Positions 35,257 through 53,720 of a stretch of DNA of 64,000 nucleotides are shown here, piece by piece. The notes under the pieces are model-generated. The model did no database searches and was not told the DNA's origin. It saw only the letters and a list, made by a program, of their open reading frames with translations. A program made the translations under genes and the position numbers. Positions within the stretch are counted from its first letter, which is position 1; each line of letters begins with the position of its first letter. The stretch covers positions 62,001 to 126,000 of the forward strand of contig JAFWSJ010000011.1 of NCBI GenBank assembly GCA_017524405.1, given 5' to 3'. Origin of the DNA: Candidatus Saccharimonadota bacterium. Its GTDB lineage: Bacteria; Patescibacteriota; Saccharimonadia; Saccharimonadales; Saccharimonadaceae.

Positions 35257-35265
35257 TGATACAAT
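35257..35265 (+). promoter_or_regulatory. Extended -10 promoter of the deaminase-RSH unit
   Basis: TGA-TACAAT on the plus strand, starting immediately after the preceding terminator. Predicted transcription start is near 35272. Confidence 0.6.
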
Positions 35266-35289
35266 ATTCTTAAGTTTATGGAGTGTAAT

Positions 35290-35763
35290 ATGCGTAAAGA
35301 TTATATCAAGTGGGACGAATATTTCATGGGGCTAGCCAAGCTCTCCGCCGAACGCAGCAAGGACCCAAATACACAGGTCGGCGCTTGTATTGTCAATGAA
35401 GCCCACAAAGTCGTCGCACTAGGCTATAATGGCATGCCACGTGGCGTCCAAGATTCAGATATGCCATGGGAGCGCGAAGGCGATTTTCTCAATACGAAGT
35501 ACGCCTACGTCTGCCACTCTGAGCTCAATGCCATCTTGAACTCCGTCGCAAACACCGATGGCTGCACGATTTACGTCACTCTCTTCCCTTGCAATGAATG
35601 TGCCAAGGCCATTGTCCAAGCCGGCATCAAGCGCGTCGTTTATGCCGACGACAAGTATGCTGACACCGACGGCACCAAAGCTTCGAAGACTATCTTCAAT
35701 CGCTGCGGCGTCGAATACGTCGAATATAAGCCATCCGGCAAAAACATTACCTTATCTCTTTAA
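35290..35763 (+). CDS. dCMP deaminase (ComEB-like)
   Basis: A 157-residue zinc-dependent cytidine/deoxycytidylate deaminase family enzyme that makes dUMP for thymidylate synthesis. Zinc ligands are in the CHSELNAIL (HxE) and FPCNECAKAI (PCxxC) motifs. The N-terminus DYIKWDEYFMGLAKLSAERS and the SKDPNTQVGACIV motif are typical. I take ATG 35290 because TGGAG lies six nt upstream. ATG 35278 would add four residues and is also possible. The stop overlaps the AAGGAG ribosome site of the RSH gene, so the two are cotranscribed. Confidence 0.93.
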   Translation: MRKDYIKWDEYFMGLAKLSAERSKDPNTQVGACIVNEAHKVVALGYNGMPRGVQDSDMPWEREGDFLNTKYAYVCHSELNAILNSVANTDGCTIYVTLFPCNECAKAIVQAGIKRVVYADDKYADTDGTKASKTIFNRCGVEYVEYKPSGKNITLSL

Positions 35764-35771
35764 GGAGTAAT

Positions 35772-37247
35772 ATGACTAAATCCCCAAAAATCCAAGAAGC
35801 CGTCAAGCTCGCCACTAAGGCGCATGATGGCCAATTGCGCAAAACCGGGGAACCCTACATTGTCCACCCTCTAGCAGTGAAGAAAATCCTCGAAGAGTGG
35901 AACATGGACGACGACACAATTATCGCCGGCATTCTCCACGACACCGTCGAGGACACCGAAATCACATTGAAAGATATCGAGGAACAGTTTGGCCACGATG
36001 TCGCTTTCCTCGTTGATGGCGTTACGAAGCTTAGCAAGGCCCGCAGCGGCATGAAAAACCTTGACAGCTACCTCCCCGAAACCAGCGACAACCTCTTGAA
36101 GCTTCTGATTGCTACCGGACAAGACGTCCGTGTTCTCATCATCAAGCTTGCCGACCGCCTACATAATCTCCGAACCCTCAGTGCCCTCCCACCGGATAAA
36201 CAGAAGAAAATCGCCCGCGAATCACTTGATGTCTTCGCGCCGCTTGCTGACCGACTCCAGATGGGTCGCGTACGCGTGGAGATCGAAGAAACCAGCTTCC
36301 GCTATCTCGACCCAAAGCGCTACGAAGAGCTAAAGAAACTTACCGAAGAACGCCTCAAGCGCGCCGACAAGAAGCTAAACAATGCGCGCCAAGCCGTCGA
36401 AGACCTCTTGAAGAAAGAACATATCAAATACAAGTGCGACGGACGCGTAAAGTCTATCTATTCGCTTCACAAAAAGCTCGCGAAATATGACCAGAACATC
36501 GACCGCGTCTATGACCTTATTGCGCTTCGTTTCATCGTCGAGGACGTCACGACATGTTATCTTACGCTCGGTCTTATTCATTCCCTTTTCCGCCCGATGG
36601 ACGGCCGCGTGAAGGACTATATTGCCGTTCCGAAGCAAAATGGTTACCAGTCCATCCACACCACCGTCATCACCCCAGACAAACAAGTCGTCGAATTCCA
36701 GATTCGCACCAAAGAAATGCACGACTATGCAGAGCGCGGTCTTGCGGCAACCTTCTTCTACAACGAGCAGAAGCTCACTTCCGCCTACACTGAAGGACGC
36801 ATCAGCAAGCTTCCAAGTCACCTCCTTTGGATTAAGGAGCTCCAGGAAACCGCCGCAAAGCTCGCCTCCGGCGAAAAAGTCGACACAAAGAAGCTCAAAC
36901 TAACCCTCTTCGCCGATAAAATCTTCGTCTACACTCCAAAGGGCGATATTATTGATCTTCCGAAGGACTCCATGCCACTCGACTTCGCCTATCGCCTGCA
37001 TAGCGAAATTGGCGCAACCTGTACCGGCGCCATCGTAAACGGCAAGATGGTGTCCCTAAACACTAAGCTTCATAACGGCGACATTGTCGAAATTGTCACA
37101 ACAAAAAACAGCAAGCCAAATCCTGGCTGGCTCGACAAAGTCGGGAGTAAGCACGCCCGCCACAAACTTCTTAGCCAGCTCCACGCCCTCTTCCCGAACT
37201 TCGTCGCAAACCCAGATCCGCCGACAAAACCAGAAAAGAAAAAATAA
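35772..37247 (+). CDS. (p)ppGpp synthetase/hydrolase without ACT domain
   Basis: A 491-residue RelA/SpoT homologue that controls the stringent alarmone. The HD hydrolase domain has IVHPLAV (His32) and AGILHDTVEDTE (His56-Asp57). The synthetase domain has GRVKSIYSLHKKL, VYDLIALRFIV, KDYIAVPKQNGYQSIHTTV and EFQIRTKEMH. A TGS domain (about 378-440, IFVYTPKGDIIDLPKDSMPLDFA) follows. The protein then ends about 50 residues later, without the helical, zinc-finger and ACT regions of the usual roughly 740-residue RSH. Catalytic residues look intact in both halves, so both making and breaking (p)ppGpp seem possible. It follows the deaminase gene by eight nt. Confidence 0.94.
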   Translation: MTKSPKIQEAVKLATKAHDGQLRKTGEPYIVHPLAVKKILEEWNMDDDTIIAGILHDTVEDTEITLKDIEEQFGHDVAFLVDGVTKLSKARSGMKNLDSYLPETSDNLLKLLIATGQDVRVLIIKLADRLHNLRTLSALPPDKQKKIARESLDVFAPLADRLQMGRVRVEIEETSFRYLDPKRYEELKKLTEERLKRADKKLNNARQAVEDLLKKEHIKYKCDGRVKSIYSLHKKLAKYDQNIDRVYDLIALRFIVEDVTTCYLTLGLIHSLFRPMDGRVKDYIAVPKQNGYQSIHTTVITPDKQVVEFQIRTKEMHDYAERGLAATFFYNEQKLTSAYTEGRISKLPSHLLWIKELQETAAKLASGEKVDTKKLKLTLFADKIFVYTPKGDIIDLPKDSMPLDFAYRLHSEIGATCTGAIVNGKMVSLNTKLHNGDIVEIVTTKNSKPNPGWLDKVGSKHARHKLLSQLHALFPNFVANPDPPTKPEKKK

Positions 37248-37275
37248 CCCCCGTTCATTCGGGGGAATATTTTTA
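37248..37275. terminator. Shared terminator between convergent RSH and type-A genes
   Basis: CCCCCG/CGGGGG stem with a TTCATT loop. T-rich sequence follows on both strands, stronger on the minus strand (TTATTTTTT). Confidence 0.75.
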
Positions 37276-38022
37276 TCCTTCGCCTTCCTCTTCGGGGACC
37301 GTTTTCTTCAGACGTTCTTCTTGTTTCTGCTGATATTTCTGAGCGTTCTCTGCATCGCCCATTAATTCATAAATCGTCTTGAGCCAATTCGCGGACTTCG
37401 CCGATTTTTCCAACTTCTCTGCCTCTTTTGCGTCTTCTAGCTCTTTCTCTCTAAAACTCTCAATTGTATAGAGCAGACCTATTCTCCGGTAGAGACAAGC
37501 AAGCCTAATCTCTTTGTCCTCGTACTGGTCGTAAATGCCGCCTAAATATTTATAAATCGCCTCGGCATCTTCATCAATTTCGTCATCGCTCTTCTCGAAA
37601 TAATAGTTCTTCACATCGCTTAGCACTCTAGCGCGTTCCTCATCCGATATTGTCGACGTCTTCTCAGTTTTCCAGTACGTGTTATATAAGTAGATCATGC
37701 CCAAAGTAATTCCGGTAACTGCCGCCGCCGAGGCTATCACGATAAGAACGATAAATACCGCTTTGCGAATACGCAATCTTGTCTCGCTCGACATCGGCAC
37801 ATGCTCGCTACGGCTCTGCTTGATTCGACCCGGACCGACTGCCTTCGAAGACCTCGACTCCCTAAGAACGCGCTTCGCCTCAGCTCGCGCACGCTTCTCT
37901 TCCTCTTTCTTTTTACGCTTCACATCGCTCGGTTTTTCAAAAAACGACGCGTTATCAATCTTCTCAATTTCTCGTGCTCGATATTGGATATCTTCTGGAG
38001 CCACTTTCTTTCCTTCGTCCAT
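37273..38022 (-). CDS. Type-A tether protein A1 (bitopic, TPR-like exodomain)
   Basis: A 249-residue single-pass protein with cytoplasmic residues 1-85. It begins with the motif shared by all three A proteins: PEDIQYRAREIEKIDNASFF, then EKP followed by a basic helix rich in KRKKKEEEKRARAEAKRV. A conserved EHVPMSS precedes the membrane segment (about 87-113), which ends LYNTYWK. The extracellular part (about 118-245) is fully helical and TPR-like (AIYKYLGGIYDQYEDKEIRL, ACLYRRIGLLY). It is closest to A2 (270 residues). AAGGAG lies nine nt after the stop of surface protein B1, so it is the second gene of that unit. Function is unknown; anchoring or exporting the partner B protein is inference. 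Confidence 0.82.
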   Translation of the reverse strand: MDEGKKVAPEDIQYRAREIEKIDNASFFEKPSDVKRKKKEEEKRARAEAKRVLRESRSSKAVGPGRIKQSRSEHVPMSSETRLRIRKAVFIVLIVIASAAAVTGITLGMIYLYNTYWKTEKTSTISDEERARVLSDVKNYYFEKSDDEIDEDAEAIYKYLGGIYDQYEDKEIRLACLYRRIGLLYTIESFREKELEDAKEAEKLEKSAKSANWLKTIYELMGDAENAQKYQQKQEERLKKTVPEEEGEG

Positions 38023-38031
38023 CTTCTCTCC

Positions 38032-41000
38032 TTAATACCTCGTCGGAATCTCTCTTAAGTAAGTCGTCATCGCTTGGCTAAGTCTGGACATTTGGTTAAA
38101 GCTCCAGAGATAATTTGCCATATTCAAGTTGAAAATCTCAGCACGCACAATCGAGCTAGCACCTTGACCAGCGCCAGCAGTACGGTTTAAGACTATCTTC
38201 TTTACCACAACCGGGGCATCGAAACGCAACGTACGATTACATTGGTTCTGATTTATCGTCCCGGACGCACCTTTCCCTCCAACCGAAACCTTTGTCGTTC
38301 CAACGAATTTACAGGTATTTACCTCATCAGCAATGATAATAGCGTTTATATAGGTCGGGCGATCAGTGATATAGACTTTCTTAGCGAAGATAATCGTCTG
38401 CGTCAAGCTATCTATCGTCCCCTTCTGGCCATTGTCATACCCAATATCACCATCGATAACTATATTATTTTCAGGCGCGCTATAGACCACTGTGCGATTC
38501 GGCTTATCGATACCTTTGTCTATAAATTGAGAATCTGAGATATTCGGCAATGAGCCGATATAGAGATTCTTCTTGCTATCAAACCTCATCACGCCGGACG
38601 GAGAAACAATAATATCACTTCCGTTATAACCAGACACGTCATAATAAACTGCGTTATCGTAGTTCTTCATTCCGAGCCCATTCACCTCAAAAGACCCCGT
38701 CGTCGACGCATAGCGCTCTTTCATGCGCTGCTCGTATTGGCTAGCCATTACGCCGCCAATCGAGGAGCTACTCGCGTTACAATTCGCGTTCGCGAATGTT
38801 TGTGTCACAAAAGTACAGTTATTTGAATTCTGCCTAGTCGACACATTGTCCGTATTATTATCCGTCCTGACCTCATTTACGGCGCGCGAAGCTGGATAGC
38901 CAGCGCGGGAATAGCCGAGAGCAGCCCCGGAAGCGAATAACAACGTCGAATTATCAGTTCTCACCCTACCAAACACGCCATACTCGGACCATGACCCATA
39001 TCGATAATCCAAGTTATTCTGTCGTTTTACATAGCTTGCCGTATCGATTTTGGTTGCGCTATAAGTATTCGAGGATTCTACGCTCATCGTCGGCTTTTTC
39101 GCAATCGTGCTACAGGAAACCGCCGTTAGCCACGAGCTAGAGTTCGACCCTTCCTGAAGAGCAATATCGCCAACTCCAGCACCATTCACAATGTCGCTGC
39201 CAGACAAGTCATGGCTATCGGCCGGATATACCGAAAGCTCAACGCAAACCCTATCGCCAACGTTTACCGTGCCATCGTCAGGGACGACAAATGAAACCGA
39301 GCCGAGTTTGGTGCCGCCGTTATCAACAGTACTCGAAGCCGTCGCATTATCGTTCCCGTTGCCGTCAAGCAAACCATTCTGGTTCAGTCTAAAATCGCTT
39401 CTGCTACTCGCCGGAACGTCATACTCAGCAATCATCGCGCCACCAGCGGTTTTGAAATAATACTTTACGTTAATCTGGGTCGGCTTAGTGATCGTCGCGT
39501 ATGGGCTGCTATTATCTCCGAGAGCAGTGTTTTTGCGCGCTTTCACAACGACACCAGGGCCCATCGACGAAGGCTCGCCAAGATACGCAACTTTACTTGA
39601 CCCGCCATTATCGACGAACGGAACAAGCTGATAATTATATGGCACTTTAACGGATGCCGTCGCAGACACGTCGCCGCCACCGCTTTTCACGCCATTATCA
39701 TAGCCAAGATTTGTCCAAGTTAATGATTGCGTAATCGTATGCCCAGTATCGAGCGTCTTCACGCGGTTATTGCATGTCGAAGCATTAACGCCGCCCGCCA
39801 ATTTATAATACCCTTTTGTCTTAGTCGTACTTCCGCCGGTGTTGCAATTATTATAGTAATCATTCTCGCCCGGCGAAACGCTCGTGTTGCCAAGTGTCTG
39901 GCTCAAAATATTTGACTCTGTAATATTTGTATAAACCATATTCTTCGGCGAGCTAGTCTTCGTGCTATCGTTCCAGCCAGAAACCTGTTCGCCAAAGAGA
40001 TAACGACTCTTCACATCGGCATTGTCTGTAGAATCGGATGTGCCGCTATAGCTAAAAGTACTGCTAACTGTTTCTTTCGCACCTGCCGCCCTTGCATATA
40101 CGCCGCCCGCGCACATATTATGCTCAAACTTTATCTCGTCACCCGGACGTGCCCAAATCGAAACCGCGCCGCTCGTGTTGTTTGACCCATAATACAAATA
40201 ACTATCGTTTATATTTCGGTTTTTAACACCAATTTGACCGTAGTTATAGCCCTTATCGCGCGAATAGATCGTGCCGGCGAGATCGCCTTTTAGCGATGCG
40301 CAAACGTCACTCGCGCGCTTAACTTTCACGCAAGCGGTCTTTGAGCTGCGCTGCGTAGTTTTCCCGGTAGCCTTAAATGTATCGAAGGATAGAGTTTCGC
40401 AATAAGTAATCGTCTGCCCGGCATATAGTTTGCCTGCTGAGTAATTATAGTCTCGAACCGTATAGGACTGCTTTGTGGTTGTCGGTTTAGAACCGCTCGA
40501 GGCCGCACCAAGAGAGTTTAGTGCATTCGGCTTCGAAGTTGGGCTGATCGAAGTGCTCCAATCATTGTTTGCACTATGGCCAAGCGAATCGGTTCTATTC
40601 ACAGTGTGCACAAAATGAATCGTATAGTCAGCGCTACCTACATTCAGGGTCTGAGCATCACCAGGATTATTTGTCGTACTCTCTACGTAGGCACCCGTGC
40701 TGTTGTTCCACGCCTTTACGTAGACCGATCCAGTAAACGTTGCTTCTGGCTCCCTTCTTACGATAACACAAGACGTCTTAGAGCCATTTTCAGTAGTCAC
40801 CCCCTCGCCCTTCTTGGAGTTATAGGTTAGCGTCTCGCAGTACTTGATTGTCTGACCAGGATTAATTTTTCCACTATAATCATAAGATCTAACCGTATAC
40901 CCTGTCTTGTTCTTAGTAGAAACACTCCCACTCGTTGCGGTACCTAAAGCGTTCACGCTCTGAGGCTTTGAAGTCGGACTAATAGAAGTGCTCCAACTAT

Positions 41001-42009
41001 TACTAATCGTCTCACCACCAGAATCTGTTCGATTTATGACGTGATCAAAGTGAATCTTATAGCTGTCTCCGCTCACGGTAATAGTCTGATTAGCGCCAGG
41101 ATTATTTGTTGTACTAGTCGCATAGTTACTACTATTAGCTGTATCAGTCGCCGTAGCGGTCACGGACCCAGTAAAGGTCGCAGCGGCATTTTTCTTAACA
41201 ATCAACTTCATCGGCGTGATACCGTCACTACCCGTAAAACCATACCTTCGGTGCATATATATCACTACTTCATCGTAACCGTCCTTATGATAAGTGGTTG
41301 GGTTTTTACTAAGGAATGTATCCATATCGATCTCAATCGACGCCGACTGCGGGTTCGTCCACCAGTTAACATATACACTATCGGCATCGGGTGCCGATTC
41401 ATAAGCGCGCGCAAAATACCAACCGTCGCTAGATCCGCCGTTATACCAATCACTACCAGTGCGCCTAATACCTGCTTTTTCCCAGCAAGTGCTTGAGGCG
41501 CTCGAGTCTACGCATAATCTTACCTGCGTCGCATAATTGATGCGATACCAACTACCATCAACTTTCGAGCGCTTTTGCCCCACGACCGATCCGACAATAT
41601 ACATGCTCTTCTTGCCGGTACGATCGAGAACCGTGTTTACGTTAATGACGTTTGGCCAACCCGTAGTATAATCATCCGCAAGCCACACGACAGCGCGCCC
41701 CGCATCGCCACCACTACACGCCCATTCGACGCCATACTCGCCGCTCCCCGATCCGACTTTTGTAATATCCGAATAAGGCTTCTTCTCGCCATTACTATTT
41801 GTGTTCACCTCAAATTTAGCCTTCGCGTTCGCAATACAGCTGCTATAATTTCTCGCGCTCGCGAAACCAGTTAGCGAAAACTGCTGGACCAAGAAAGAAA
41901 GAGTCAATACCAAGCAGGCAAAAAAGAGCGTTTTACCAAAGGAATATTTCCGTCCTCGCTCAAACCTGAACGGGACCCCCAAAAACAGCTCCACGCCACC
42001 ACTTTCCAT
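38032..42009 (-). CDS. Giant surface protein B1
   Basis: A 1325-residue exported protein. The unusual N-terminus (MESGGVELFLGVPFRFERG) precedes a hydrophobic signal (about 27-52). An N-terminal domain with cysteines is homologous to that of B2 (KPYSDITKV, YGVEWAC, RAVVWLA). Two tandem Ig-like repeats of about 150 residues follow (ATFTGSV...NNPG...INRTDS...CVIVRR). The rest (about 750 residues) is the core shared with B2 and B3: WARPGDEIKFEHNMCAG, YPADSHDLSG, SCSTIAKKPTMSVESSN, a beta-helix-like stretch (FAKKVYITDRPTYINAIII) and the invariant tail from NLNMANYLWSFNQMSRLSQA to PTRY. No LPxTG signal is present. Leaderless promoter. Confidence 0.85.
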   Translation of the reverse strand: MESGGVELFLGVPFRFERGRKYSFGKTLFFACLVLTLSFLVQQFSLTGFASARNYSSCIANAKAKFEVNTNSNGEKKPYSDITKVGSGSGEYGVEWACSGGDAGRAVVWLADDYTTGWPNVINVNTVLDRTGKKSMYIVGSVVGQKRSKVDGSWYRINYATQVRLCVDSSASSTCWEKAGIRRTGSDWYNGGSSDGWYFARAYESAPDADSVYVNWWTNPQSASIEIDMDTFLSKNPTTYHKDGYDEVVIYMHRRYGFTGSDGITPMKLIVKKNAAATFTGSVTATATDTANSSNYATSTTNNPGANQTITVSGDSYKIHFDHVINRTDSGGETISNSWSTSISPTSKPQSVNALGTATSGSVSTKNKTGYTVRSYDYSGKINPGQTIKYCETLTYNSKKGEGVTTENGSKTSCVIVRREPEATFTGSVYVKAWNNSTGAYVESTTNNPGDAQTLNVGSADYTIHFVHTVNRTDSLGHSANNDWSTSISPTSKPNALNSLGAASSGSKPTTTKQSYTVRDYNYSAGKLYAGQTITYCETLSFDTFKATGKTTQRSSKTACVKVKRASDVCASLKGDLAGTIYSRDKGYNYGQIGVKNRNINDSYLYYGSNNTSGAVSIWARPGDEIKFEHNMCAGGVYARAAGAKETVSSTFSYSGTSDSTDNADVKSRYLFGEQVSGWNDSTKTSSPKNMVYTNITESNILSQTLGNTSVSPGENDYYNNCNTGGSTTKTKGYYKLAGGVNASTCNNRVKTLDTGHTITQSLTWTNLGYDNGVKSGGGDVSATASVKVPYNYQLVPFVDNGGSSKVAYLGEPSSMGPGVVVKARKNTALGDNSSPYATITKPTQINVKYYFKTAGGAMIAEYDVPASSRSDFRLNQNGLLDGNGNDNATASSTVDNGGTKLGSVSFVVPDDGTVNVGDRVCVELSVYPADSHDLSGSDIVNGAGVGDIALQEGSNSSSWLTAVSCSTIAKKPTMSVESSNTYSATKIDTASYVKRQNNLDYRYGSWSEYGVFGRVRTDNSTLLFASGAALGYSRAGYPASRAVNEVRTDNNTDNVSTRQNSNNCTFVTQTFANANCNASSSSIGGVMASQYEQRMKERYASTTGSFEVNGLGMKNYDNAVYYDVSGYNGSDIIVSPSGVMRFDSKKNLYIGSLPNISDSQFIDKGIDKPNRTVVYSAPENNIVIDGDIGYDNGQKGTIDSLTQTIIFAKKVYITDRPTYINAIIIADEVNTCKFVGTTKVSVGGKGASGTINQNQCNRTLRFDAPVVVKKIVLNRTAGAGQGASSIVRAEIFNLNMANYLWSFNQMSRLSQAMTTYLREIPTRY

Positions 42010-42015
42010 ATCTAT

Positions 42016-42024
42016 ATTTTAGCA
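42016..42024 (-). promoter_or_regulatory. Extended -10 of B1, leaderless
   Basis: TGC-TAAAAT on the minus strand, six nt before the ATG. The surrounding sequence (CTCATGCTAA...ATATGGA) matches the promoter of the type-A gene A2. Confidence 0.7.
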
Positions 42025-42052
42025 TGAGCGAGATGAAAAATATCAACGTTTT

Positions 42053-45000
42053 TTAGTATCTAGACGGCAATTCGCGCAAATAGGTCGTAGTCGCCTGGCT
42101 GAGGCGCGACATTTGGTTGAAGCTCCAGAGATAATTCGCCATATTGAGATTGAAGATTTCGGCGCGGCGAATGGCATAATTACCATTATCGGCACCAGCC
42201 GTGCGATTAAGAATCAGCTTACTAGCCACTACTGGCGCGTCGAAACGCAGCGTTTGGTTGCAACGCCCAGAACCAAGCACCGACGCACCACTCTTTCCTC
42301 CAACGGAGACCGCTTCGCTGCCAGCATATTTGCAGGTGTTAACCGACTCGGCAATAATAACCGCATTAATATAGGTCGGGTTATCTGTAATGTATACACT
42401 CTTCGCGAATATAATTACCTGCGTCAAGCCATCAATCGTACTATTTGCGCCATTGCTCGTCCCAATGTTTCCATCGATAATGACTCTTCTATCCGGCGCA
42501 TCATAGACGATCGTTCGGTTACGCCTATCGACGCCCTTGCTTGCAAATTGAGCATCGGTCAAATTCGGAAGCGAAGAGATATAAAGGTTTTTCGACGAGC
42601 GGAAGCGCACAATACCGCTACCCTCAGCGATCACGTCAGAGCCATTATACCCAGACAGATCCACATAAGCAGCACTGCCATAGTTCTTCACCGGAAGACC
42701 ATTCGTGTTAAACTCCGCACCACCACTATATCGATCCTTCATACGCTCTGAATAAATCCGCGCCGAAACACTACCGATATTCGTATTACTCGATTCGCAA
42801 TTAGCATTCGCGAAAGTTTGCGTCATGAAGGTGCAGTTATTCGTATTTGAACTTGCAGCGATCTTGTTATTATTTACGCTCGCCACGTCGTTAACGCGAG
42901 GGGCGTTCACACCCTGAGCGTTCGGATAGCCATCGCGCGAATAGCCAAGCGCCGCACCCGACACAAACAGCGAAGAATTATTATCGGTCCTCACTCTGCC
43001 AAACACGCCGTATTCTGACCAGGAGCCGAAGGTAACTTTCATCAAATCGACATTGCGATTATACTTCGCCGTCTTGAACTGAGTGGCGCTGTACGCATTC
43101 GACGACTCAACACTCATCGTCGGCTTCTTCGCAATCGTGCTGCAAGATACAGCCGTAGCCCAGTTTGCGCGATTATTTCTGTCTAGCGTAGAACCTTCAA
43201 TGAGAGCTGGTTCTAGGCCGGCAGCCACACCGGCTCCATTCACCGAACCCGCATTGCGATTGTCATGGCTGTCCGCTGGGAAAACCGAGACCTCAACGCA
43301 GACTTTATCGCCTACGCTAACGCCACTATTTGCAATAGCAATCTTCACATCTGGCAATTGCGTACCGCCGTTATCGACGGATTTTTGACTTGCCTGTTCC
43401 GTCGTACCCTCAATCAGCCCATCGCGGTTTAGTCGGATAGCGCTACGGCTACTACTCGTTACGTAGTTTTCTGTCACACCGTTAACGCTAATAACACCAC
43501 CACTTGACGAGCGATAATAATACTTCACCTCAATATCCGTCGGCTTCGTTATGGTCGCATAATTCTGTTTATCGCTCGGGAATGCGATGTTCGTCCTAGG
43601 AACAGTTACGACGCCAGGACGCATCGTCACGTCCTCGCCAAGATATGCAATCTTCCCAGAAGTCTGGTTATCGACATATGGGGTAAGCGTATAATTATAC
43701 GGTACTTTCACTTGAGCCGTAGCGGATTTGTCGCCATTATTATACTTGCTTCCGTTATTCATGCCGTAATCATTCCAAGTCAAAGTCTGCGAGAAGCTAT
43801 GACCAACATCAAGCGTCTTCGTGCGATTATTGCAGCCCGTCAAACTCCCATCCGTCGCAAAAACGCCACCGCCAACTACCTTATAGTAACCGTTCGTACC
43901 ATTCGCGCCACAAGAGTTGTAGTTGTTAATCCCGCTCGGAGAATGGAGTCGCTTACTAATGTTCGCTAGATTCGCGACAATATTGCTGCTGCTAATATTA
44001 TTGAAGTTGAAAGTCTTCGGTGTAGTACTTCCATTTCCATCACTCCCGCTATATGTCGATACGTCGTTCGAGAAAAGATAATTTCCTTTTAATTGCGCAT
44101 TAACGGCGCCGTCGCTATCGGCGCTCGGCCTAAACGAAATATTGCTCACAGTCTCGCCGCCGCCCGTTGCGCGCGCGTACACGCCACCAGCACAATAGTT
44201 ATAGCGGAAGCGAATATCGTCGCCTGGACGCGCATAAATCGAGTCCACGCCGCTAGACACAAACTTGTAGTTGTTTCCCAGCGTAGTGTTCAAGACACCA
44301 ATTTGTCCCAAATTCTGACCGTTGCTGAAACTATAAATCGAGTTTGCTAAATCTCCCTCGAGGTCACTACAGGTGCTCGACGCCTTCTTTACCTTTATGC
44401 ATACTTTCTTCGTATCATACTGAGTTGTCTCGCCCGACTTAATATAAGTCGCGAACTTAAACTCTTCACAATAAGTAATCGTTTGCCCGGCGAAAATGGT
44501 TCCAGAATACGTCTTATCTCTTGGCGTATAAGTAGTTTTTGTCGTAGTCGCCTGAGTACCGTTAGCATTGGAGGTCGTCGCATTCCCCGTCACAATGCCA
44601 GAATTCGACGTCGTTACGGTCCAAGGGTTGCCAACCGAATGGCCATTTGAATCGGTCCTCGTAATCGTATGCCTGAAGTTAATCGAATAGGTATCGCCAG
44701 AAACAGTCAAAGTCTGCTCATCGCCAGGATTGTCCGTCGTGCTAGTGACAGAAGCGTCGCCAGAAGAAGCCTTAGCAGTGACCGCACCAGTATAGGTCGA
44801 CGGCAAAGCCTTCATGACGTTGACGTAAACCGGGGAAACACCTTCTCCGCCATTATTGAAGCCATACTTGCGATGCATGTATAGAATATATTGGTCGTAA
44901 GTGCTGTACGATTTATGAACCGAAAATGAAGAGACGAATTTATCCATATCGATTTTGACAGTCACTTTTCTCGGGTTCGACCAGTGATATTCGCTATCCG

Positions 45001-45565
45001 ACAAACTACTCTCTTTTGAGCGGATAAAACACTCGTAATGACTGCTGTTTTCGCAGTCAGAACTCCATCCAGAGCCCTTGGTGATGCCTACGCTGCCCCA
45101 ACATTTCGACGTGGTATTGTTATTGGCTGCCGATTTCGTGCTACAAAGCCTCACTTTCGTTGCATAAACCGTTTTGTTTACTTGATGCCTAACGGAGCTT
45201 ACAATCGATGCCGTAACAGTACCGGTCCTCGGGAATATGTTATTTACGTTTACTCTATATTTCCCACTGCCAAGGGAGGTAAAGCCATCAGCGTCCGACG
45301 CAAGCCAAACAACCGCCCGCGTGCCAGAAGCCGCACACGCCCAGTTGACACCATAATCGTTATCGCCAGGCGCCACTTTAGTAATATCGGAATATGGTTT
45401 CGGAGTATTATCGTTCACCTTAAATTTATTCTTCGCGGCACTCTTACAATCAGAAGAGCTAAAAGCGGAGACATTACGCCCGGGAATAGTAACAGCGGCT
45501 AGCGCAGAGACGAAAAGCCCAACGGCCAATACTCGCCAAAAGCAAAAAATCCTATCCTTCTCCAT
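42053..45565 (-). CDS. Giant surface protein B2
   Basis: A 1170-residue exported protein. I place the start at 45565, where GGAGGA lies seven nt upstream and the product begins MEKDRIFCFWRV with a signal segment (about 7-30) ending NVSA. Longer in-frame starts (up to 45625) would overlap A2 further without a ribosome site. The domain order is a B1-like N-terminal domain with several cysteines, one Ig-like repeat (STYTGAVTAK...CIKVKKAS), then the common roughly 750-residue core with IYARPGDDIRFRYNYCAG, PADSHDNRNAG and FAKSVYITDNPTYINAVII, and the tail ending LPSRY. The start overlaps the end of A2 by 14 nt, so the two are one unit. Confidence 0.85.
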   Translation of the reverse strand: MEKDRIFCFWRVLAVGLFVSALAAVTIPGRNVSAFSSSDCKSAAKNKFKVNDNTPKPYSDITKVAPGDNDYGVNWACAASGTRAVVWLASDADGFTSLGSGKYRVNVNNIFPRTGTVTASIVSSVRHQVNKTVYATKVRLCSTKSAANNNTTSKCWGSVGITKGSGWSSDCENSSHYECFIRSKESSLSDSEYHWSNPRKVTVKIDMDKFVSSFSVHKSYSTYDQYILYMHRKYGFNNGGEGVSPVYVNVMKALPSTYTGAVTAKASSGDASVTSTTDNPGDEQTLTVSGDTYSINFRHTITRTDSNGHSVGNPWTVTTSNSGIVTGNATTSNANGTQATTTKTTYTPRDKTYSGTIFAGQTITYCEEFKFATYIKSGETTQYDTKKVCIKVKKASSTCSDLEGDLANSIYSFSNGQNLGQIGVLNTTLGNNYKFVSSGVDSIYARPGDDIRFRYNYCAGGVYARATGGGETVSNISFRPSADSDGAVNAQLKGNYLFSNDVSTYSGSDGNGSTTPKTFNFNNISSSNIVANLANISKRLHSPSGINNYNSCGANGTNGYYKVVGGGVFATDGSLTGCNNRTKTLDVGHSFSQTLTWNDYGMNNGSKYNNGDKSATAQVKVPYNYTLTPYVDNQTSGKIAYLGEDVTMRPGVVTVPRTNIAFPSDKQNYATITKPTDIEVKYYYRSSSGGVISVNGVTENYVTSSSRSAIRLNRDGLIEGTTEQASQKSVDNGGTQLPDVKIAIANSGVSVGDKVCVEVSVFPADSHDNRNAGSVNGAGVAAGLEPALIEGSTLDRNNRANWATAVSCSTIAKKPTMSVESSNAYSATQFKTAKYNRNVDLMKVTFGSWSEYGVFGRVRTDNNSSLFVSGAALGYSRDGYPNAQGVNAPRVNDVASVNNNKIAASSNTNNCTFMTQTFANANCESSNTNIGSVSARIYSERMKDRYSGGAEFNTNGLPVKNYGSAAYVDLSGYNGSDVIAEGSGIVRFRSSKNLYISSLPNLTDAQFASKGVDRRNRTIVYDAPDRRVIIDGNIGTSNGANSTIDGLTQVIIFAKSVYITDNPTYINAVIIAESVNTCKYAGSEAVSVGGKSGASVLGSGRCNQTLRFDAPVVASKLILNRTAGADNGNYAIRRAEIFNLNMANYLWSFNQMSRLSQATTTYLRELPSRY

Positions 45566-46364
45566 TGCTGTCATCCTCCATATTCTTCGCTCTTTCCTGA
45601 ATAATCCCCTCGTATTTCGCGACATTCTTCTCGTCGCCGAGAATAGAATATAGCTTCTTCAACCAACCAGCGGAATTAATTGACTGGTCGATCTCATCGG
45701 CTTTTTTTGCATCGTCAAGCAATTTCTCGGCAAAGCCATCAATCTCGCCTAGAAGCTCCAGTTTTCGATACAGACAGGCGAGCCTGATCTCCTCATCTTC
45801 ATAGGCTTCATATTTTTCCCCAAGGTACTCATAAATCTTATTAGCATCCTTTGCGATTTTTGCGTCGGTCTCATCGGAATAATAGCTCGCAACACTATTC
45901 AGTGCCTCCTGACGCTCCTCTTCACTGAGCACCACCGGCTCTTTTGGCTTCCAATAAGTGTTATACATATAAACTAGACCCGCCCCAGAGCCAAACAACA
46001 AGAACGCAGCAAAAGAGGCTATAAGAATCTTTTTCTTTTTGCTAGACATCGGAACATGCTCTTTTTGGGGCATAGCGCTCCGAGCCTCCTGTTTCTTCCG
46101 CCTTCGCTCTTCTTTTACAATGCGCTTCGCCTCGACCCTCATCCGCTTCTGCTCTTCCTTCTTTTTCCGCTCGCGGTCTTCAGGCTTATCAAAATACTCA
46201 GAACTATCAACCCTAGTAATATTAGAGGAATGAAAATGCATGTCTTCTGCAGGAATTGCCTCTGCAGAATTATTACTCTCCACTGCCCCACCAGATTCTG
46301 CAACCGGGTTCGTATCCGGCACAAAATCTACGGCACCAGAAGACTCCACATCTCCACTGTCCAT
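45552..46364 (-). CDS. Type-A tether protein A2 (bitopic, TPR-like exodomain)
   Basis: A 270-residue single-pass protein. Its N-terminus MDSGDVESSGAVDFVPD is shared with A3. Next come the common motif (AEDMHFHSSNITRVDSSEYF, DKPEDRERKKKEEQKRM), QKEHVPMSS, a membrane segment (about 112-135) ending MYNTYWK, and a helical TPR-like extracellular domain (IYEYLGEKYEAYEDEEIRL, ACLYRKLELLG). That domain is clearly homologous to A1. It is leaderless (TAATAT six nt upstream) and followed by B2 with a 14-nt overlap. Same proposed role as A1. Confidence 0.82.
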   Translation of the reverse strand: MDSGDVESSGAVDFVPDTNPVAESGGAVESNNSAEAIPAEDMHFHSSNITRVDSSEYFDKPEDRERKKKEEQKRMRVEAKRIVKEERRRKKQEARSAMPQKEHVPMSSKKKKILIASFAAFLLFGSGAGLVYMYNTYWKPKEPVVLSEEERQEALNSVASYYSDETDAKIAKDANKIYEYLGEKYEAYEDEEIRLACLYRKLELLGEIDGFAEKLLDDAKKADEIDQSINSAGWLKKLYSILGDEKNVAKYEGIIQERAKNMEDDSNGEG

Positions 46365-46370
46365 ATATCT

Positions 46371-46379
46371 ATATTAGCA
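46371..46379 (-). promoter_or_regulatory. Extended -10 of the A2-B2 unit, leaderless
   Basis: TGC-TAATAT on the minus strand, six nt before the A2 ATG, in the 39-nt gap after B3. Confidence 0.68.
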
Positions 46380-46403
46380 TGAGCGCAATAAAAATGTATA
46401 CTT

Positions 46404-49400
46404 TTAATACCGAGTCGGTAATTCACGAGAATAAGTTGTTGCCGCCTGGCTGAGACGAGACATCTGGTTGAAGCTCCAAAGGAAATTCGCCATGTTGAGG
46501 TTGAAGATTTCGGCACGGCGAATCGCATCGTCACCATTTCCGGCACCCGCAGTACGATTCAGCGCTAATTTTTTCACTACGACTGGCGCATCAAAGCGAA
46601 GTGACTGATTGCACACGTTGCTACTAATAATACTAGCGCCGGACTTGCCGCCAACTGCGACCCTAGTGCCTGAATCAAATCTACAAGTATTAACATTATC
46701 AGCAATAATCACGGCATTAATATATGTAGGTTGACTCGTAAAGTATACATTCTTCGCTATAATGATCACCTGCGTCAAATCGTCCGACCCAACCTTAAGG
46801 CCACCATCATAGTTTAGATTACCATCAATTACGATACTGTTTTCAGGCGCACTGTAAACTATAGTATGGTTCGGACTCTCAATGCCTTTCTCGGCAAATT
46901 GCTCATTCGAAATATTCGGCAATGAACTAATATAGAGATTCTTCTTGCTGTCAAAACGAATAATACCGGAAGGCGAAACAATCACGTCGCTTCCGCTGTA
47001 TCCGGATACGTCGTAATAAGTAGCAGTACCGCCGAATACTTTAGTCGGCAAACCAGTTATTTCAAACGTCCCGCCAGACGAAGCATAACGCTCTTTTATA
47101 CGCTGTTCGTATTGGCTTGCCATCACGCCACCAATCGAAGTGCTGCTAGTATTGCAATTCGCATTCGCAAAAGTCTGCGTCATAAAAGTGCACTCGTTCG
47201 AGTTTGTCTTTGTGGATACCTTGTTCCCGTCCGCACTCGCATCGTCGTTCGCGCGAGTCACATTCGCCACTCCATTTGCGCCCGAATAGCCATTACGCGA
47301 GTAGCCAAGCGCTGCGCCAGAAGCAAAGAGTGAAGCGTTAGACGAATTACTTACCCATACGCGACCGAATACGCCATATTCCGACCAAGAGCCAAAGTTA
47401 AACTTCTTTGAGCCAATAGTTCTCGTGTAATTTGCCGTTTTGAAGCTAGTGGCACTATAGGCATTCGAGGACTCGACACTCATCGACGGCTTCTTTGCGA
47501 TCGTGCTACAAGACACTGAGCTAACCCAATTCGATCCATTGCCAGAGCCATCGCTTATGGCAATATTATTATTGCCTGCACCATATACCGAAGCCGCATC
47601 TTTCTCGTCATGGCTGTCGGCCGGATAAACCGATACCTCAACGCAAACCTTATCGCCAACGCTCACGCCAGAGTTAGGAATCTGAATGTTTACCACTGGC
47701 AACTGGTTACCGCCATTATCGACGGACGTCTGGCTCTCCTGACCGGTCGTGCCGCTCAGATAGCCCTGGTTATTCAAGCGCGCCCCAGACCTGCTGCTAT
47801 TTGGCGCCGAAGCCTCGCTAATAATGCTCCCGCTAGCAGTCTTGAAATAATATTTAACATTTATTTCCGTTGGCTTCGTAATTGTAGCGTAATTCTGCTT
47901 GCCGCTTGGGAATGCAGTATTTGTACGTGCAACCGTCACAACACCAGGCGTCATCTTTAGAGACTCGCCAAGATATGCAACCTTACCGGTGTTACCGCTA
48001 TTGTTCGTCACATATGGTCTCAAGACGTAGTTGTACGGGACTACAACACTTGCCGAAGCGGTCCTTGGGGAATTGCCGAACGAACTTCCATTATAAGTCT
48101 GTTCATTCCAATTTAGCTTCTGCGTAATAACGCTGCCGACATCTATCGCGCCAACATCATATGTGCTATTGCGGGCGCAGTCGTCCTTACCGGCAATCTG
48201 ATAATAACCATCTTGCGTATTCGCCCCGCAAAGATAATTCTTGCCAGCCTGGCCATTTGGCGACCAGAAATCACCAACCAGGTTCTTGCCTCTCAAAAAA
48301 TTATAATTATGGCCATCATCGTAACTATGCCAGAAGCGCGGATTATAGAAAGTGCCATCAACTACCGACACGGACTGGCGGAATAAGTATCCATTCCCCC
48401 CATTATTTAGCCTCGTACTCTCGCCAGACGCCGAATAAGTCACGGTGTTCGATAAGTTCTTTTCTCGAATCGGATATAGTACGCCGGCACACATCTTATA
48501 GTAGAAGCGAATATTATCTGCTGGTCGCGCAAAAATCGAAACACCCATTTCCGAATAAGGCGTCGTATAAGTGGGGTCGCCATCACCAGTCAAATCATAG
48601 TTCTTTACGCCAATTTTACCAACGTTAGCGCCGTAATTTAGGCCGTACTGGAAACCTGGGAAATCATCGCAGGTCGCATTATCGCGCCAAACCGTCACGC
48701 ATTCCGACGCAGTCGCTGTAATATTTCCATTCGATGCGTCAATTTTACTCTTATAGGTTATATTGCCGCAGAATGTGATCGACTCTCCATAACGAAGATT
48801 TCCAGAATAAGTCTGCCCGGTAATATCGTCTCCCTTGCTCTGACCTTCCGTTCTATACGCTGCCCCGCTCGCTTCGTGGCTAGGAGAAGGAATACTGCCA
48901 TCTTTCTTCATCTCCGTATTCCACGGATCCCCGACCGTATCGCCGGCCGTGTCATTATTACGTTTGATATTATATGCAAAGTTTACAGTATACTTGCCCT
49001 CCGAATCGGTAATCTTCACCTTCTTGTTACTATCGATCGACGCATTCGTGCTGCCGTTTTTTACAGTAGGCGTCACACTCGCAGTAAACGTGGCCGGCGG
49101 ACGTTTCAGAACAATGGTTCTCTCTCCGGCAGATGCATAGGCCTTATTATTAACATTCGAAAGACGATATTGAAGTTCATGTTTATAAGTCTTCGCCTGC
49201 CCAGGAGTCAACGAAGCCCTATACCCACCAGAACCATTAGCATACTCAGTCGTTGAATATACTGGTTTATATTCATGGTCGGTAACGGCCTCGAACCTTA
49301 TACTTCCCTCAGCCGTGTCGGACCCTAGCCAATCGTTCTTTATCACCTTATAAGGCTCATCCTCGCCCGTAATAATCCCCATATCTCTTCTAATAAAATG

Positions 49401-50738
49401 GCTAAAAATTATTGGTTTACTAGTCGCACTATTAACGGTAATCGGGTTACTGGCACTAATCTCTGCGCCATTATAGGTCAATGATCCATCATAACTAAGA
49501 TCAGTCTTCCCTGTAAATTTGCTATACGGGGCCGTGTCGATCGTAGTACCACACTTGCTACCGCCCCATTCGAATGCAAAATCGGTCGTGTCAATCAAGA
49601 ATAGAGCACTCGTGCTGTTGTCGTCAGTCGCGCCGTTCTCGGAATTCGTGCAGTGGTTCCAAACATTCGTGCCGCTCACATTTACTAGAAAATTATGATA
49701 AATCGTATCGTCGTCAAAGACGAGCTCCTGTTCACCCGCGCGAACGGCCTTCTTACACTCGCCGTGTGTCCCGCCATCAAGGATATCTACCATCGAGACA
49801 TAGGTCTTCAGCCTTTTGCCGTCAACTTCTTCGTCGACGGCGCCCCTGATGTTGCCATCCCCGTCCCTCAAAAATTTGAAGTGCTCCGCATAGCGATAAG
49901 CCGAACTATACTCATTTGCGCCTTCTTTAGAGTGCATCCTATCGCCAATATCTATATCATTGAGTGCCCAAATCATCTTTTTTCCATCGATCTTATCGTG
50001 AGTCAAATGGTCATGGAGCTCGACCTTTACGTCAAAAATCGCACCGCCACGACAACGAGATTTGTCGACAAGCGACTTCCCAGAGAAAAATGACCAACCC
50101 TTACGCGCCTCATATCCAGAGTTCATGTTGTTGCCGTAGCCATACGCAATCGATACCACGGTCGAAGGACCGTCGTCCTTATCGCACGCGTATGTCCTAA
50201 CTCTAATATTCGAAATTGTCATGTACACGTCGTATGCTGCGCCAGTCTGTACATCAATTGCCGCCTCCGACGAAACAATCTTGATATAATCATTAGCTCC
50301 GTTATAAGTATAAGTTTTTTCGGTCGTCGAATCGCCATGGTTCCATGCAATAGCATAGCTATTTCCATGGTTTTCACCCTCGAAAACCATGTTTGTCGTT
50401 TTGTCTTTGTCTTTCGCATAGCAATCGAATGCACTACTCGTAGTCCCACTGAACGAGATGCTATAACCAGCCCATTCCGGGTGCTTGTTATCGTCGCCAG
50501 TATGCTTTTTGTTATAGCAAGCATAGTAGAAGCCGACCTTGTTTCGGTCCAATATGACGTCCGTCGGAATCATTTCGTTCTTAATGACAAGATTACCTTC
50601 CACCGTACTATATGCCTGGTCGTGCTTTCCCTCGATAGAAGCAACCCCTGCCGCCGAAACGCCTGGCGAACAAATCGCCGCTAAACCCACAGCAACTATC
50701 ATCGCCACCAGAACCGAAAGCATCTTCCGCTTAGTCAT
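46404..50738 (-). CDS. Giant surface protein B3
   Basis: A 1444-residue exported protein. The start is ATG 50738 with GGGGGAG six nt upstream; it overlaps the A3 stop (TGATG), and a GTG three nt earlier is too close to the SD. The signal peptide ends near CSPGVSAAG (about 30). A roughly 400-residue N-terminal domain differs from B1/B2 (VGFYYACYNKKHTGDDNK, SGYEARKGWSFFSG). Two Ig-like repeats follow, then the common core (IFARPADNIRFYYKMCAG, YPADSHDEKDA, SCSTIAKKPSMSVESSN, IIAKNVYFTSQPTYINAVII) and the tail ending LPTRY. It is the largest protein in the window. Many cysteines suggest disulfides. Confidence 0.85.
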   Translation of the reverse strand: MTKRKMLSVLVAMIVAVGLAAICSPGVSAAGVASIEGKHDQAYSTVEGNLVIKNEMIPTDVILDRNKVGFYYACYNKKHTGDDNKHPEWAGYSISFSGTTSSAFDCYAKDKDKTTNMVFEGENHGNSYAIAWNHGDSTTEKTYTYNGANDYIKIVSSEAAIDVQTGAAYDVYMTISNIRVRTYACDKDDGPSTVVSIAYGYGNNMNSGYEARKGWSFFSGKSLVDKSRCRGGAIFDVKVELHDHLTHDKIDGKKMIWALNDIDIGDRMHSKEGANEYSSAYRYAEHFKFLRDGDGNIRGAVDEEVDGKRLKTYVSMVDILDGGTHGECKKAVRAGEQELVFDDDTIYHNFLVNVSGTNVWNHCTNSENGATDDNSTSALFLIDTTDFAFEWGGSKCGTTIDTAPYSKFTGKTDLSYDGSLTYNGAEISASNPITVNSATSKPIIFSHFIRRDMGIITGEDEPYKVIKNDWLGSDTAEGSIRFEAVTDHEYKPVYSTTEYANGSGGYRASLTPGQAKTYKHELQYRLSNVNNKAYASAGERTIVLKRPPATFTASVTPTVKNGSTNASIDSNKKVKITDSEGKYTVNFAYNIKRNNDTAGDTVGDPWNTEMKKDGSIPSPSHEASGAAYRTEGQSKGDDITGQTYSGNLRYGESITFCGNITYKSKIDASNGNITATASECVTVWRDNATCDDFPGFQYGLNYGANVGKIGVKNYDLTGDGDPTYTTPYSEMGVSIFARPADNIRFYYKMCAGVLYPIREKNLSNTVTYSASGESTRLNNGGNGYLFRQSVSVVDGTFYNPRFWHSYDDGHNYNFLRGKNLVGDFWSPNGQAGKNYLCGANTQDGYYQIAGKDDCARNSTYDVGAIDVGSVITQKLNWNEQTYNGSSFGNSPRTASASVVVPYNYVLRPYVTNNSGNTGKVAYLGESLKMTPGVVTVARTNTAFPSGKQNYATITKPTEINVKYYFKTASGSIISEASAPNSSRSGARLNNQGYLSGTTGQESQTSVDNGGNQLPVVNIQIPNSGVSVGDKVCVEVSVYPADSHDEKDAASVYGAGNNNIAISDGSGNGSNWVSSVSCSTIAKKPSMSVESSNAYSATSFKTANYTRTIGSKKFNFGSWSEYGVFGRVWVSNSSNASLFASGAALGYSRNGYSGANGVANVTRANDDASADGNKVSTKTNSNECTFMTQTFANANCNTSSTSIGGVMASQYEQRIKERYASSGGTFEITGLPTKVFGGTATYYDVSGYSGSDVIVSPSGIIRFDSKKNLYISSLPNISNEQFAEKGIESPNHTIVYSAPENSIVIDGNLNYDGGLKVGSDDLTQVIIIAKNVYFTSQPTYINAVIIADNVNTCRFDSGTRVAVGGKSGASIISSNVCNQSLRFDAPVVVKKLALNRTAGAGNGDDAIRRAEIFNLNMANFLWSFNQMSRLSQAATTYSRELPTRY

Positions 50739-51610
50739 CACTTCTCCCCCTTTCTTGTGCCTAACAAATAGGCATCTATCGCTTCGCTTACGCTCTTATA
50801 CGTTTCGACCTCGCTATTATGAGAATATGCGATGCCGCTCTGCACAATTGTCATAGAAAATATATCTTCCCCACTCCTCTTTTCGTAACTGAACAAATGA
50901 TACATTCCAGATTCATCAAATTTTGGGAGCATTTTCACCGCTTCAAGATATCTTCCCTTTGGGTACACAGCACCTGCCTGAGGATAATACTCAGCCACCA
51001 AATCGCCATTATATTTAGCAACAAGCTCATTAATCTGAGTCTCGCTCAGCTCTTTTCCTGCAACTTCTTCAAAGAAGCGCAAGATAGGAGTCATATTTTC
51101 ACTCACATACTTCCGGTCATTAGCGTCGTTAATGTCTTTAATAATCTTCGGCACGAAAATCACACCGCAAACAATAAGCGTAACGGCCACAATTGCAGCT
51201 ACATAAATATACCAACGCTTCGCCCTGCGGCCGAGGAATCCTCTAATACGTGCTTGGCGATGCTCGCTCTCAAGCCTACTTTGTTCCTTTTTAAGCGCCT
51301 CCTCCTGCGCTACGACATCACTAGATGCTCCACTAATCTTGTCTTTTTTCTTCGATTCCTTCGAAACGCGCTTTGCCTCAGCTTCCATGCGCCTCTTTTC
51401 GGCGCGCTCCTTGCGCTTTTTATCTTCCGGCTTATCAAAATAATCAGCGTCATCGGACCTATCAATATCAGTGGCACGAAAACGTATATCTTCTGCGGCA
51501 ACTTTTCCCACAGAATTCATATCTACTGGCCCACCAGACTTCTCTTTAGGACTATTGTCCGGCTTAAAATCCACGGCACCACCAGAGAACTCCACATCTC
51601 CACTGTCCAT
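50738..51610 (-). CDS. Type-A tether protein A3 (bitopic, divergent exodomain)
   Basis: A 290-residue single-pass protein. The start MDSGDVEFSGGAVDFKPD is nearly identical to A2. The common motif follows (AEDIRFRATDIDRSDDADYF, DKPEDKKRKERAEKRRM, EAEAKRVSKES), then a longer coiled basic region. A membrane segment lies at about 133-155 (YIYVAAIVAVTLIVCGVIF). The extracellular domain (about 160-285) is unlike A1/A2: KELSETQINELVAKYNGDLV, AVYPKGRYLEAVKML, HLFSYEKRSGEDIFSMTIVQ. The inside part is thus conserved and the outside part variable. Leaderless, and directly coupled to B3 by a TGATG overlap. Confidence 0.82.
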   Translation of the reverse strand: MDSGDVEFSGGAVDFKPDNSPKEKSGGPVDMNSVGKVAAEDIRFRATDIDRSDDADYFDKPEDKKRKERAEKRRMEAEAKRVSKESKKKDKISGASSDVVAQEEALKKEQSRLESEHRQARIRGFLGRRAKRWYIYVAAIVAVTLIVCGVIFVPKIIKDINDANDRKYVSENMTPILRFFEEVAGKELSETQINELVAKYNGDLVAEYYPQAGAVYPKGRYLEAVKMLPKFDESGMYHLFSYEKRSGEDIFSMTIVQSGIAYSHNSEVETYKSVSEAIDAYLLGTRKGEK

Positions 51611-51616: not shown

Positions 51617-51622
51617 ATTTTA
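51617..51622 (-). promoter_or_regulatory. -10 element of the A3-B3 unit, leaderless
   Basis: TAAAAT on the minus strand, six nt before the A3 ATG. Confidence 0.65.
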
Positions 51623-51657: not shown

Positions 51658-51684
51658 ACAAAAAATGCCCCGTTTGGGGCATTT
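51658..51684 (-). terminator. Rho-independent terminator of glyS
   Basis: AAATGCCCC/GGGGCATTT stem with an AAAC loop and T run on the minus strand. Confidence 0.9.
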
Positions 51685-53018: not shown

Positions 53019-53720
53019 TTACAGGCTTTTGCTCTGCTCGGCACAGCGCACGATATATAGCACTTCGTCGAGCAGCTCACCGAAGCCCGCAACTTTCATG
53101 CAAATCTCGAGCGGCGACGAGACCATGAGCCGCATCAACTTGATATGCTCAGCCGTCACTGGACCGCCATCGCGCACCGAAAGCGCCCCATCCTCTACGT
53201 TCCAGACGTACTGACTCGAAGCCGAAAGCTTTTCGCCTGCCGTGTCGTATTTTAGGTTTATTTCCTCACCTGAAGCCATAAGCATATTCATACTCGCCCA
53301 AGCCCACAAAAGCTCCTTGTAGCGGCTAGGAGAGCCCGAGACGGCATGTTTCTGTGCGGCCTCCATACATTGGCGTAAAATATTAAAGAATTCTGGCGTC
53401 TCCGCCTGCTCTGCGCGACGCGAAGCCTCGCGCATAAGGCGCCCACCTAGGTCCAGAAGTTCGACATCTCCCACGAAAGCATCATAATGCTCCAACAGCT
53501 TCGCTGAAGTTAGGATCCCCAACTCGCCTTTGCCGTCATGAATCACCACTTCCGACACCGAAAACAGCTCAATTCCACCCGCGAGCTTGGATTTCTCGCG
53601 TCGGACGCCTTTTGCCATCACGGACTTCTTGCCTTCTGGCGTCAAAAGCTGCAAAATTCGGTCCGCCTCGCCAAAATTCGTCCGCTTCAGAACAATCGCC
53701 TTCGTCCTAAGATCACGCAT
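53019..53720 (-). CDS. recO: DNA repair protein RecO
   Basis: A 233-residue recombination mediator that helps load RecA on SSB-coated DNA. The N-terminal OB fold starts RDLRTKAIVLKRTNFGEADR, with LLTPEGKKSVMAKGVRREKSK, followed by a helical domain. Zinc-ligand cysteines usual in many RecO proteins are not evident. I place the start at 53720 from the family N-terminus; longer in-frame starts read into the receiver gene. It overlaps that gene's end by eight nt, making recO the third gene of a histidine kinase-receiver-recO operon. Confidence 0.92.
   Translation of the reverse strand: MRDLRTKAIVLKRTNFGEADRILQLLTPEGKKSVMAKGVRREKSKLAGGIELFSVSEVVIHDGKGELGILTSAKLLEHYDAFVGDVELLDLGGRLMREASRRAEQAETPEFFNILRQCMEAAQKHAVSGSPSRYKELLWAWASMNMLMASGEEINLKYDTAGEKLSASSQYVWNVEDGALSVRDGGPVTAEHIKLMRLMVSSPLEICMKVAGFGELLDEVLYIVRCAEQSKSL

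Follow-up and report, generated by a model that had tools for sequence, protein, structure and literature searches.

Saccharibacteria (TM7) are tiny bacteria that depend on a host bacterium, and the means by which they recognise and hold it are not settled; type IV pili (T4P) are implicated, but for the pilus tip only candidate pilins have been put forward. We analysed a stretch of 64 000 nucleotides (the window) from a Candidatus Saccharimonadota genome (GenBank assembly GCA_017524405.1, contig JAFWSJ010000011.1, positions 62 001 to 126 000 of the forward strand), in which three gene pairs, A3-B3, A2-B2 and B1-A1, each encode a single-pass membrane protein (A) and a large secreted protein (B). 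T4P of the kind considered here need a minor-pilin complex to start the fibre, and Myxococcus PilY1 joins this complex and reaches the tip (PMC7541494). T4P drive host binding in N. lyticus: without PilX2, a component with an expanded C-terminal domain, binding falls from approximately 10.6% of host cells to 4.6% (PMC12206443). In S. epibionticum, most of the T4P genes are essential (PMC10633639). Taken together, the effect of PilX2 loss and this essentiality make pilus tips a plausible place for host recognition.

Many relatives of the three pairs are encoded with this machinery. All relatives from public genomes belong to Candidatus Saccharibacteria, and a class-wide search with a profile of the B core matched 240 of 393 Saccharimonadia genomes. 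On three public contigs (L008, L009 and L010), one A-B pair is followed directly by four genes, three of which have prepilin-type N-termini; the versions of these minor-pilin genes in the window's own genome match GspH, GspI and Pfam N_methyl, the fourth, for which no curated model matched, being called GspK-like by position. In many other relatives, B precedes pilM, pilN, pilO, pilB, pilT, pilC and a pilin gene, and curated Pfam and NCBIfam models confirmed PilM, the PilB-type ATPase and PilC. Among 84 distinct B genes, 27 precede minor pilins, 24 precede pilM, three more have a T4P gene nearby and 30 are without one; of 177 control genes, just three are followed by a T4P gene within the next four genes. 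Since these 84 loci were the best-scoring ones, we repeated the test on genomes sampled evenly across the phylum (one match in this set, G002:C2:316147-316800, lies within an open frame of 25 343 codons, either an extremely large gene or an artefact). In the 29 genomes examined out of 32 Saccharimonadia genomes with a match (contexts counted by hand), B immediately precedes pilM-N-O-B-T-C in 20, adjoins minor pilins in four and lies elsewhere in five, and the T4P-linked B genes span seven families. Synteny thus links the A-B pair to T4P. Beyond the class, matches are confined to part of B's beta-rich stretch, and just one of the 12 such loci examined (L178) is a T4P machinery locus. Some proteins of approximately 1300-2100 amino acids from other Patescibacteria classes (L165, L167, L168, L179 and L180) have only this stretch in common with B; their genes do not adjoin T4P genes, and they are possibly an older surface-protein module.

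A preliminary description of the window had proposed a separate, undescribed surface system, made of stand-alone fibres held by A. On such a reading, the T4P neighbourhood would reflect shared regulation only. Consistent with this view, the cassettes of the window, and those of roughly one third of the relatives, are away from T4P genes and have their own promoters, and a membrane protein A is encoded with each B. However, the T4P synteny is seen in seven families and on the M as well as the P clade of the B tree, which regulation alone hardly explains, and we consider stand-alone fibres quite unlikely. Because relatives of the pairs are found in T4P operons class-wide, upstream of pilM or of minor pilins, the units are most likely interchangeable pilus tips rather than a separate surface system, that is, a surface device built of exchangeable parts, probably for host contact, that belongs with T4P. 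Membership of a described pilus system would also count against an undescribed one: the synteny points in this direction, but neither A nor B gave any match above the cut-off in Pfam, NCBIfam and PHROG scans. On balance, we think it probable that B is a PilY1 analogue (a priming and tip adhesin), that A is its membrane partner and that the units provide alternative tips with which hosts are recognised.

The array lies on contig C8 of the source genome (G000; 898 kb, 99% complete). It is composed of six minus-strand open reading frames (ORFs) forming three units, A3-B3 (51610 down to 46404), A2-B2 (46364 down to 42053) and B1-A1 (42009 down to 37273), with overlaps of 4 bp between A3 and B3 and up to 74 bp between A2 and B2, and a gap of 9 bp between B1 and A1. 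Its features are as follows.

51660..51684, minus: stem-loop and T run, terminator-like, just 5' of the A3 promoter (direct sequence reading)
51617..51622, minus: A3 -10 box TAAAAT, leaderless promoter, 6 nt before the ATG (sequence)
50738..51610, minus: A3, single-pass membrane protein, 290 amino acids; A1/A2-type cytoplasmic motif, exodomain dissimilar in sequence
51410..51502, minus: A3 conserved cytoplasmic motif VAAEDIRFRATDIDRSDDADYFDKPEDKKRK (alignment)
46404..50741, minus: B3, large secreted protein, 1445 amino acids (ORF; signal peptide, VSA cleavage-like site, no LPxTG)
46407..48674, minus: B3 conserved core, 756 amino acids (alignment)
46407..46514, minus: B3 C-terminal tail AEIFNLNMANFLWSFNQMSRLSQAATTYSRELPTRY
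46371..46376, minus: A2 -10 box TAATAT, leaderless promoter, 6 nt before the ATG (sequence)
45552..46364, minus: A2, single-pass membrane protein, 270 amino acids, exodomain predicted with confidence as a TPR fold
46161..46256, minus: A2 conserved cytoplasmic motif IPAEDMHFHSSNITRVDSSEYFDKPEDRERK (alignment)
42053..45625, minus: B2, large secreted protein, 1190 amino acids (1170 from a later ATG), overlaps A2
42056..44374, minus: B2 conserved core (alignment)
42056..42163, minus: B2 C-terminal tail
42016..42021, minus: B1 -10 box TAAAAT, leaderless promoter, 6 nt before the ATG (sequence)
38032..42009, minus: B1, large secreted protein, 1325 amino acids, two repeats of approximately 144 residues ahead of the core
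38035..40305, minus: B1 conserved core (alignment)
38035..38142, minus: B1 C-terminal tail
37273..38022, minus: A1, single-pass membrane protein, 249 amino acids, TPR-type exodomain, 3' of its B
37912..38004, minus: A1 conserved cytoplasmic motif VAPEDIQYRAREIEKIDNASFFEKPSDVKRK (alignment)
37248..37265, minus: terminator-like bidirectional hairpin 3' of A1, common to the converging RelA/SpoT-type gene; end of the array

The preliminary description had read most of this architecture correctly: three units of overlapping or close genes, a leaderless promoter for each, a cytoplasmic motif common to the A proteins, TPR-like exodomains in A1 and A2 with a dissimilar one in A3, and B proteins with a common core, differing N-termini, a varying repeat number and no LPxTG. 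The -10 boxes (TAAAAT or TAATAT) end 6 nt ahead of the start codons of A3, A2 and B1, and these starts therefore look leaderless; A1 and B3 have a Shine-Dalgarno-like sequence instead. Searches of the own genome retrieved no fourth B and no credible further A, including any A copy without a B.

B1-B3 have a common layout, with an N-terminal signal peptide (AxA-type site), variable N-terminal domains, the core and the tail. The core is 56-57% identical among them over approximately 760 amino acids, and identity reaches 62-68% in the C-terminal 330 amino acids, compared with 26-46% in the N-terminal parts. The tail (AEIFNLNMANYLWSFNQMSRLSQAxTTYxREL/IPxRY), first described as invariant, is near-invariant, B3 having F where B1 and B2 have Y. 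The repeat of approximately 144 residues is present in two copies in B1, one in B2 and one clear copy in B3, and that of B1 is real (80 of 144 residues identical; score 397 versus a shuffle maximum of 74). As for the putative beta-helix, the stretch in question is predicted to be beta-rich, but model confidence is too low to name its fold: the full B2 model is of low confidence (pLDDT, predicted local distance difference test, 63), and Foldseek retrieves only generic multi-immunoglobulin-like proteins. A profile of the B C-terminal module had no match in the PDB. B1-B3 contain no LPxTG and no C-terminal sortase anchor of the usual make-up (LPxTG, hydrophobic segment and positive tail); among 90 B proteins, a single one has LPxT[GASN] within its last 60 residues. 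Of the 84 B proteins, 70 have just one hydrophobic segment, which is N-terminal, and 62 have an AxA-type site after it, as called by a simple rule and not by SignalP. In place of a prepilin signal (G/A-FxxxE ahead of a hydrophobic helix; no Pfam N_methyl or NCBIfam prepilin match), B1-B3 thus have AxA-type signal peptides.

A Sec-type N-terminus without a wall anchor would also suit a protein secreted in a T4P-dependent manner, by a type II secretion-like push, with A as a secretion chaperone and B as an adhesin or enzyme, either free or bound to the wall; likewise, a position beside GspH-I-J-K-like pseudopilin genes is as compatible with type II secretion as with T4P. Nevertheless, B is encoded in one gene row with a retraction-type ATPase and the major pilin, and a secreted substrate need not keep its core and tail near-identical between loci while the rest differs. 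Moreover, no catalytic domain was found in the 33 diverse B proteins scanned, and this type of secretion seems to us unlikely.

On the A side, the exodomains of A1 and A2 are 46% identical, whereas that of A3 aligns to them at 18-25% identity with many gaps. The A2 model displays a disordered or helical N-terminal cytoplasmic part, a transmembrane helix and an exodomain of TPR blocks with pLDDT >90; its best Foldseek match is a designed TPR (5fzq; TMt 0.75, probability 1.00, but E 0.026), and the A sequence profile matches TPR chains at E 2e-16. The cytoplasmic motif, which reads (D/E)IxFxSxDIxKxxKxEYFVNVEGAExRK in relatives, is present in A1-A3 and, by regular expression, in 33 of 43 related A proteins, compared with 0.4 in shuffled sequence. 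More generally, of the 78 B genes away from contig edges, 64 have a gene for a single-pass membrane protein of 140-375 amino acids directly upstream (gap of 20 bp or less). Co-occurrence of A and B, which the preliminary description had proposed to check, is usual, but among the most distant members B does not always have an obvious A. At pilM loci, the partner combines a short cytoplasmic tail with a TPR exodomain (weak Pfam TPR matches), and hhalign relates A to these partners at 98.6%.

That the conserved cytoplasmic motif of A, about 30 residues long, stands far from the membrane could alternatively suggest that the pair is chiefly a contact sensor, B touching the host and A signalling through the membrane; a link between PilY1 and surface sensing is reported for P. 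aeruginosa (PMC8806160). The basic/transmembrane part of A also has a weak, sub-threshold NCBIfam similarity to MapZ and MacP. This similarity is, however, low-complexity and far below the cut-off, so that a relationship of A to these proteins was rejected. Furthermore, the short cytoplasmic tail of the pilM-locus partners implies that signalling is not general, and a device serving mainly as a sensor appears very unlikely.

The way in which A and B diverge suggests a uniform docking end combined with exchangeable recognition ends, and supports interchangeable units, as was first supposed: pairs within one genome can have a near-identical B C-terminus with a different B N-terminus and A exodomain. 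In G092, the last 330 residues of the two B copies are 96% identical (the last alignment columns being identical), against 34% for the N-terminal parts and 22% for the A exodomains; the corresponding values in G145 are 92%, 43% and 23%. Near relatives of B3 have N-termini 38-44% and C-termini 75-78% identical, and near relatives of A3 have exodomains 35-38% and cytoplasmic parts 72% identical. For pairs with similar C-termini, the A exodomain correlates with the B N-terminus (rho 0.37) more than with the C-terminus (0.16), and the A cytoplasmic part correlates with the B C-terminus (rho 0.58), values that are suggestive only, since the data points are not independent. A mirror-tree correlation over all 43 A-B pairs was uninformative, distances being saturated. 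We do not favour binding of the near-invariant B tail by the TPR exodomain of A: B3 retains this tail although the exodomain of A3 shows no similarity to those of the TPR type, and A exodomains track the B N-terminus instead.

In a tree of the C-terminal 330 residues of B, pilM-locus copies and minor-pilin-operon copies form separate clades, and B1-B3 of the window nest within the minor-pilin-operon clade, beside copies from the minor-pilin operons of other genomes. The own genome carries a full T4P set, including a minor-pilin operon that starts 48 bp after the RNase Y gene (L013), the very spot at which L008-L010 have an A-B pair. Both this operon and the own pilM locus (L129) are without a pair, and the three pairs stand at a RelA/SpoT-type gene. 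(Apart from the main T4P loci, the own genome also has a second PilB/GspE-type ATPase gene, G000:C13:159188-160354, and an isolated prepilin-like gene, G000:C13 164278-164385.) Near relatives have subsets at the RelA/SpoT-type site, A3-B3 with B1-A1 in L004 and A3-B3 with A2-B2 in L005. In G241 and G092, one pair stands at the RelA/SpoT-type locus and another at minor pilins (L090-L093), and G332 has three tandem pairs directly before the minor pilins, in the order RNaseY-A-B-A-B-A-B-H-I-J-K (L106, L132). As the RelA/SpoT-type gene flanks cassettes in L004, L005, L006, L090 and L092 too, cassettes have used this site repeatedly. Tandem B genes also occur in the pilM locus (L070:2824-7067, L079:7094-10875, L185 and L197), so that B duplication happens there as well.

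In the window, the RelA/SpoT-type enzyme (35772-37247; 491 amino acids; HD, RelA_SpoT and TGS domains) converges on the array, together with a dCMP deaminase-type gene (34911-35763). With two genes between them and A3, the genes for a short histidine kinase and for a response regulator of a single domain (Pfam matches; 53713-54731) overlap by 4 bp, and L004 has these two genes too.

From these results, a mechanism can be proposed. The three units would be duplicated and diversified copies of a T4P accessory pair. B would be a Sec-exported multidomain protein whose conserved core and tail dock onto the GspH-I-J-K-like priming minor pilins; such docking would carry B out at the pilus tip, where its variable N-terminal domains could bind the surface of the host bacterium, a PilY1 role thereby being played by a non-homologous protein. 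A, with its usually TPR-type outer domain, would hold or load its own B at the membrane, and its cytoplasmic motif would couple it to a common partner, probably a part of the pilus machine. Several cassettes could then provide one pilus machine with alternative tips. The sequence architecture, the synteny of relatives with T4P genes, the A-B pairing, the ancestry of the window copies and the modular divergence are direct results, whereas tip location, minor-pilin docking, loading by A and host binding are inferred.

Several observations weigh against tips of this kind. The window genome has no T4P gene near the cassettes, and the T4P link of these three copies consequently rests on homology; the same lack of a T4P gene within reach concerns 30 of the 84 B genes. 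A few distant members (L048, L049, L050, L057, L067 and L080) have no convincing A; in L048, L050, L057 and L067, B instead follows a lipoprotein-like gene with long T/P/E-rich repeats. Because the A3 exodomain differs, a single mode of loading may not suit every A protein, and the correlation between A exodomain and B N-terminus is weak, the rank correlation vanishing over all pairs. Finally, the structural model of B is of low confidence, and searches revealed no PilY1-like sequence or fold in B (Pfam on B1-B3 and 33 diverse B proteins, PDB profile and Foldseek searches); indeed, the Pfam PilC/PilY1 C-terminal beta-propeller domain was not detected in any of these B proteins.

We would tentatively go one step further, to a possibility that falls somewhat short of an even chance: Saccharibacteria may have evolved in their core T4P locus their own tip class, unrelated to PilY1 and consisting of a TPR membrane loader and a large modular adhesin, and may have copied it into movable cassettes, diversifying the host-binding ends and keeping the docking end uniform. 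If so, the set of cassettes would decide which host bacterium each strain can ride. In any case, an unannotated protein pair with variable, recognition-like and fixed, docking-like ends is now identified in the T4P loci of most class members examined. It makes host specificity testable, and cassette sets offer a marker for strain comparison.

Among described systems, PilX1 and PilX2 of N. lyticus TM7x are comparable to B: they are saccharibacterial T4P components with expanded C-terminal domains, have no predicted prepilin-peptidase signal and have been discussed as PilY1-like (PMC12206443). They are nonetheless described as pilins, with a pilin helix at the N-terminus and, in PilX2, an RCC1 propeller, and no A-like protein is among the TM7x T4P genes in the main text of that report (PMC12206443). 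Equating B with PilX2 through this propeller was rejected, as no RCC1 was found in the 33 B or 24 GspK-like proteins scanned; PilX1 may be the pilM-locus type of B. The modular pilin PilB of Streptococcus sanguinis likewise brings an adhesive module to the T4P of a Gram-positive bacterium, but this module is fused to a pilin, whereas B is separate, Sec-exported and without a pilin signal (PMC8179133). The PilY1/PilC proteins of type IVa pili (Myxococcus, Pseudomonas and Neisseria) resemble B in being large Sec-exported non-pilins encoded with minor pilins, with a variable N-terminus and a conserved C-terminal part. Of these traits, B has the Sec signal peptide without a pilin signal, and adjoins minor pilins in 27 of 84 B genes though not at the window locus. 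Unlike PilY1, B ends in a beta-rich core and a helical tail and has a dedicated TPR membrane partner. As with the cassettes, several alternative PilY1 copies per genome occur in myxobacteria (PMC9109919, PMC13190605).

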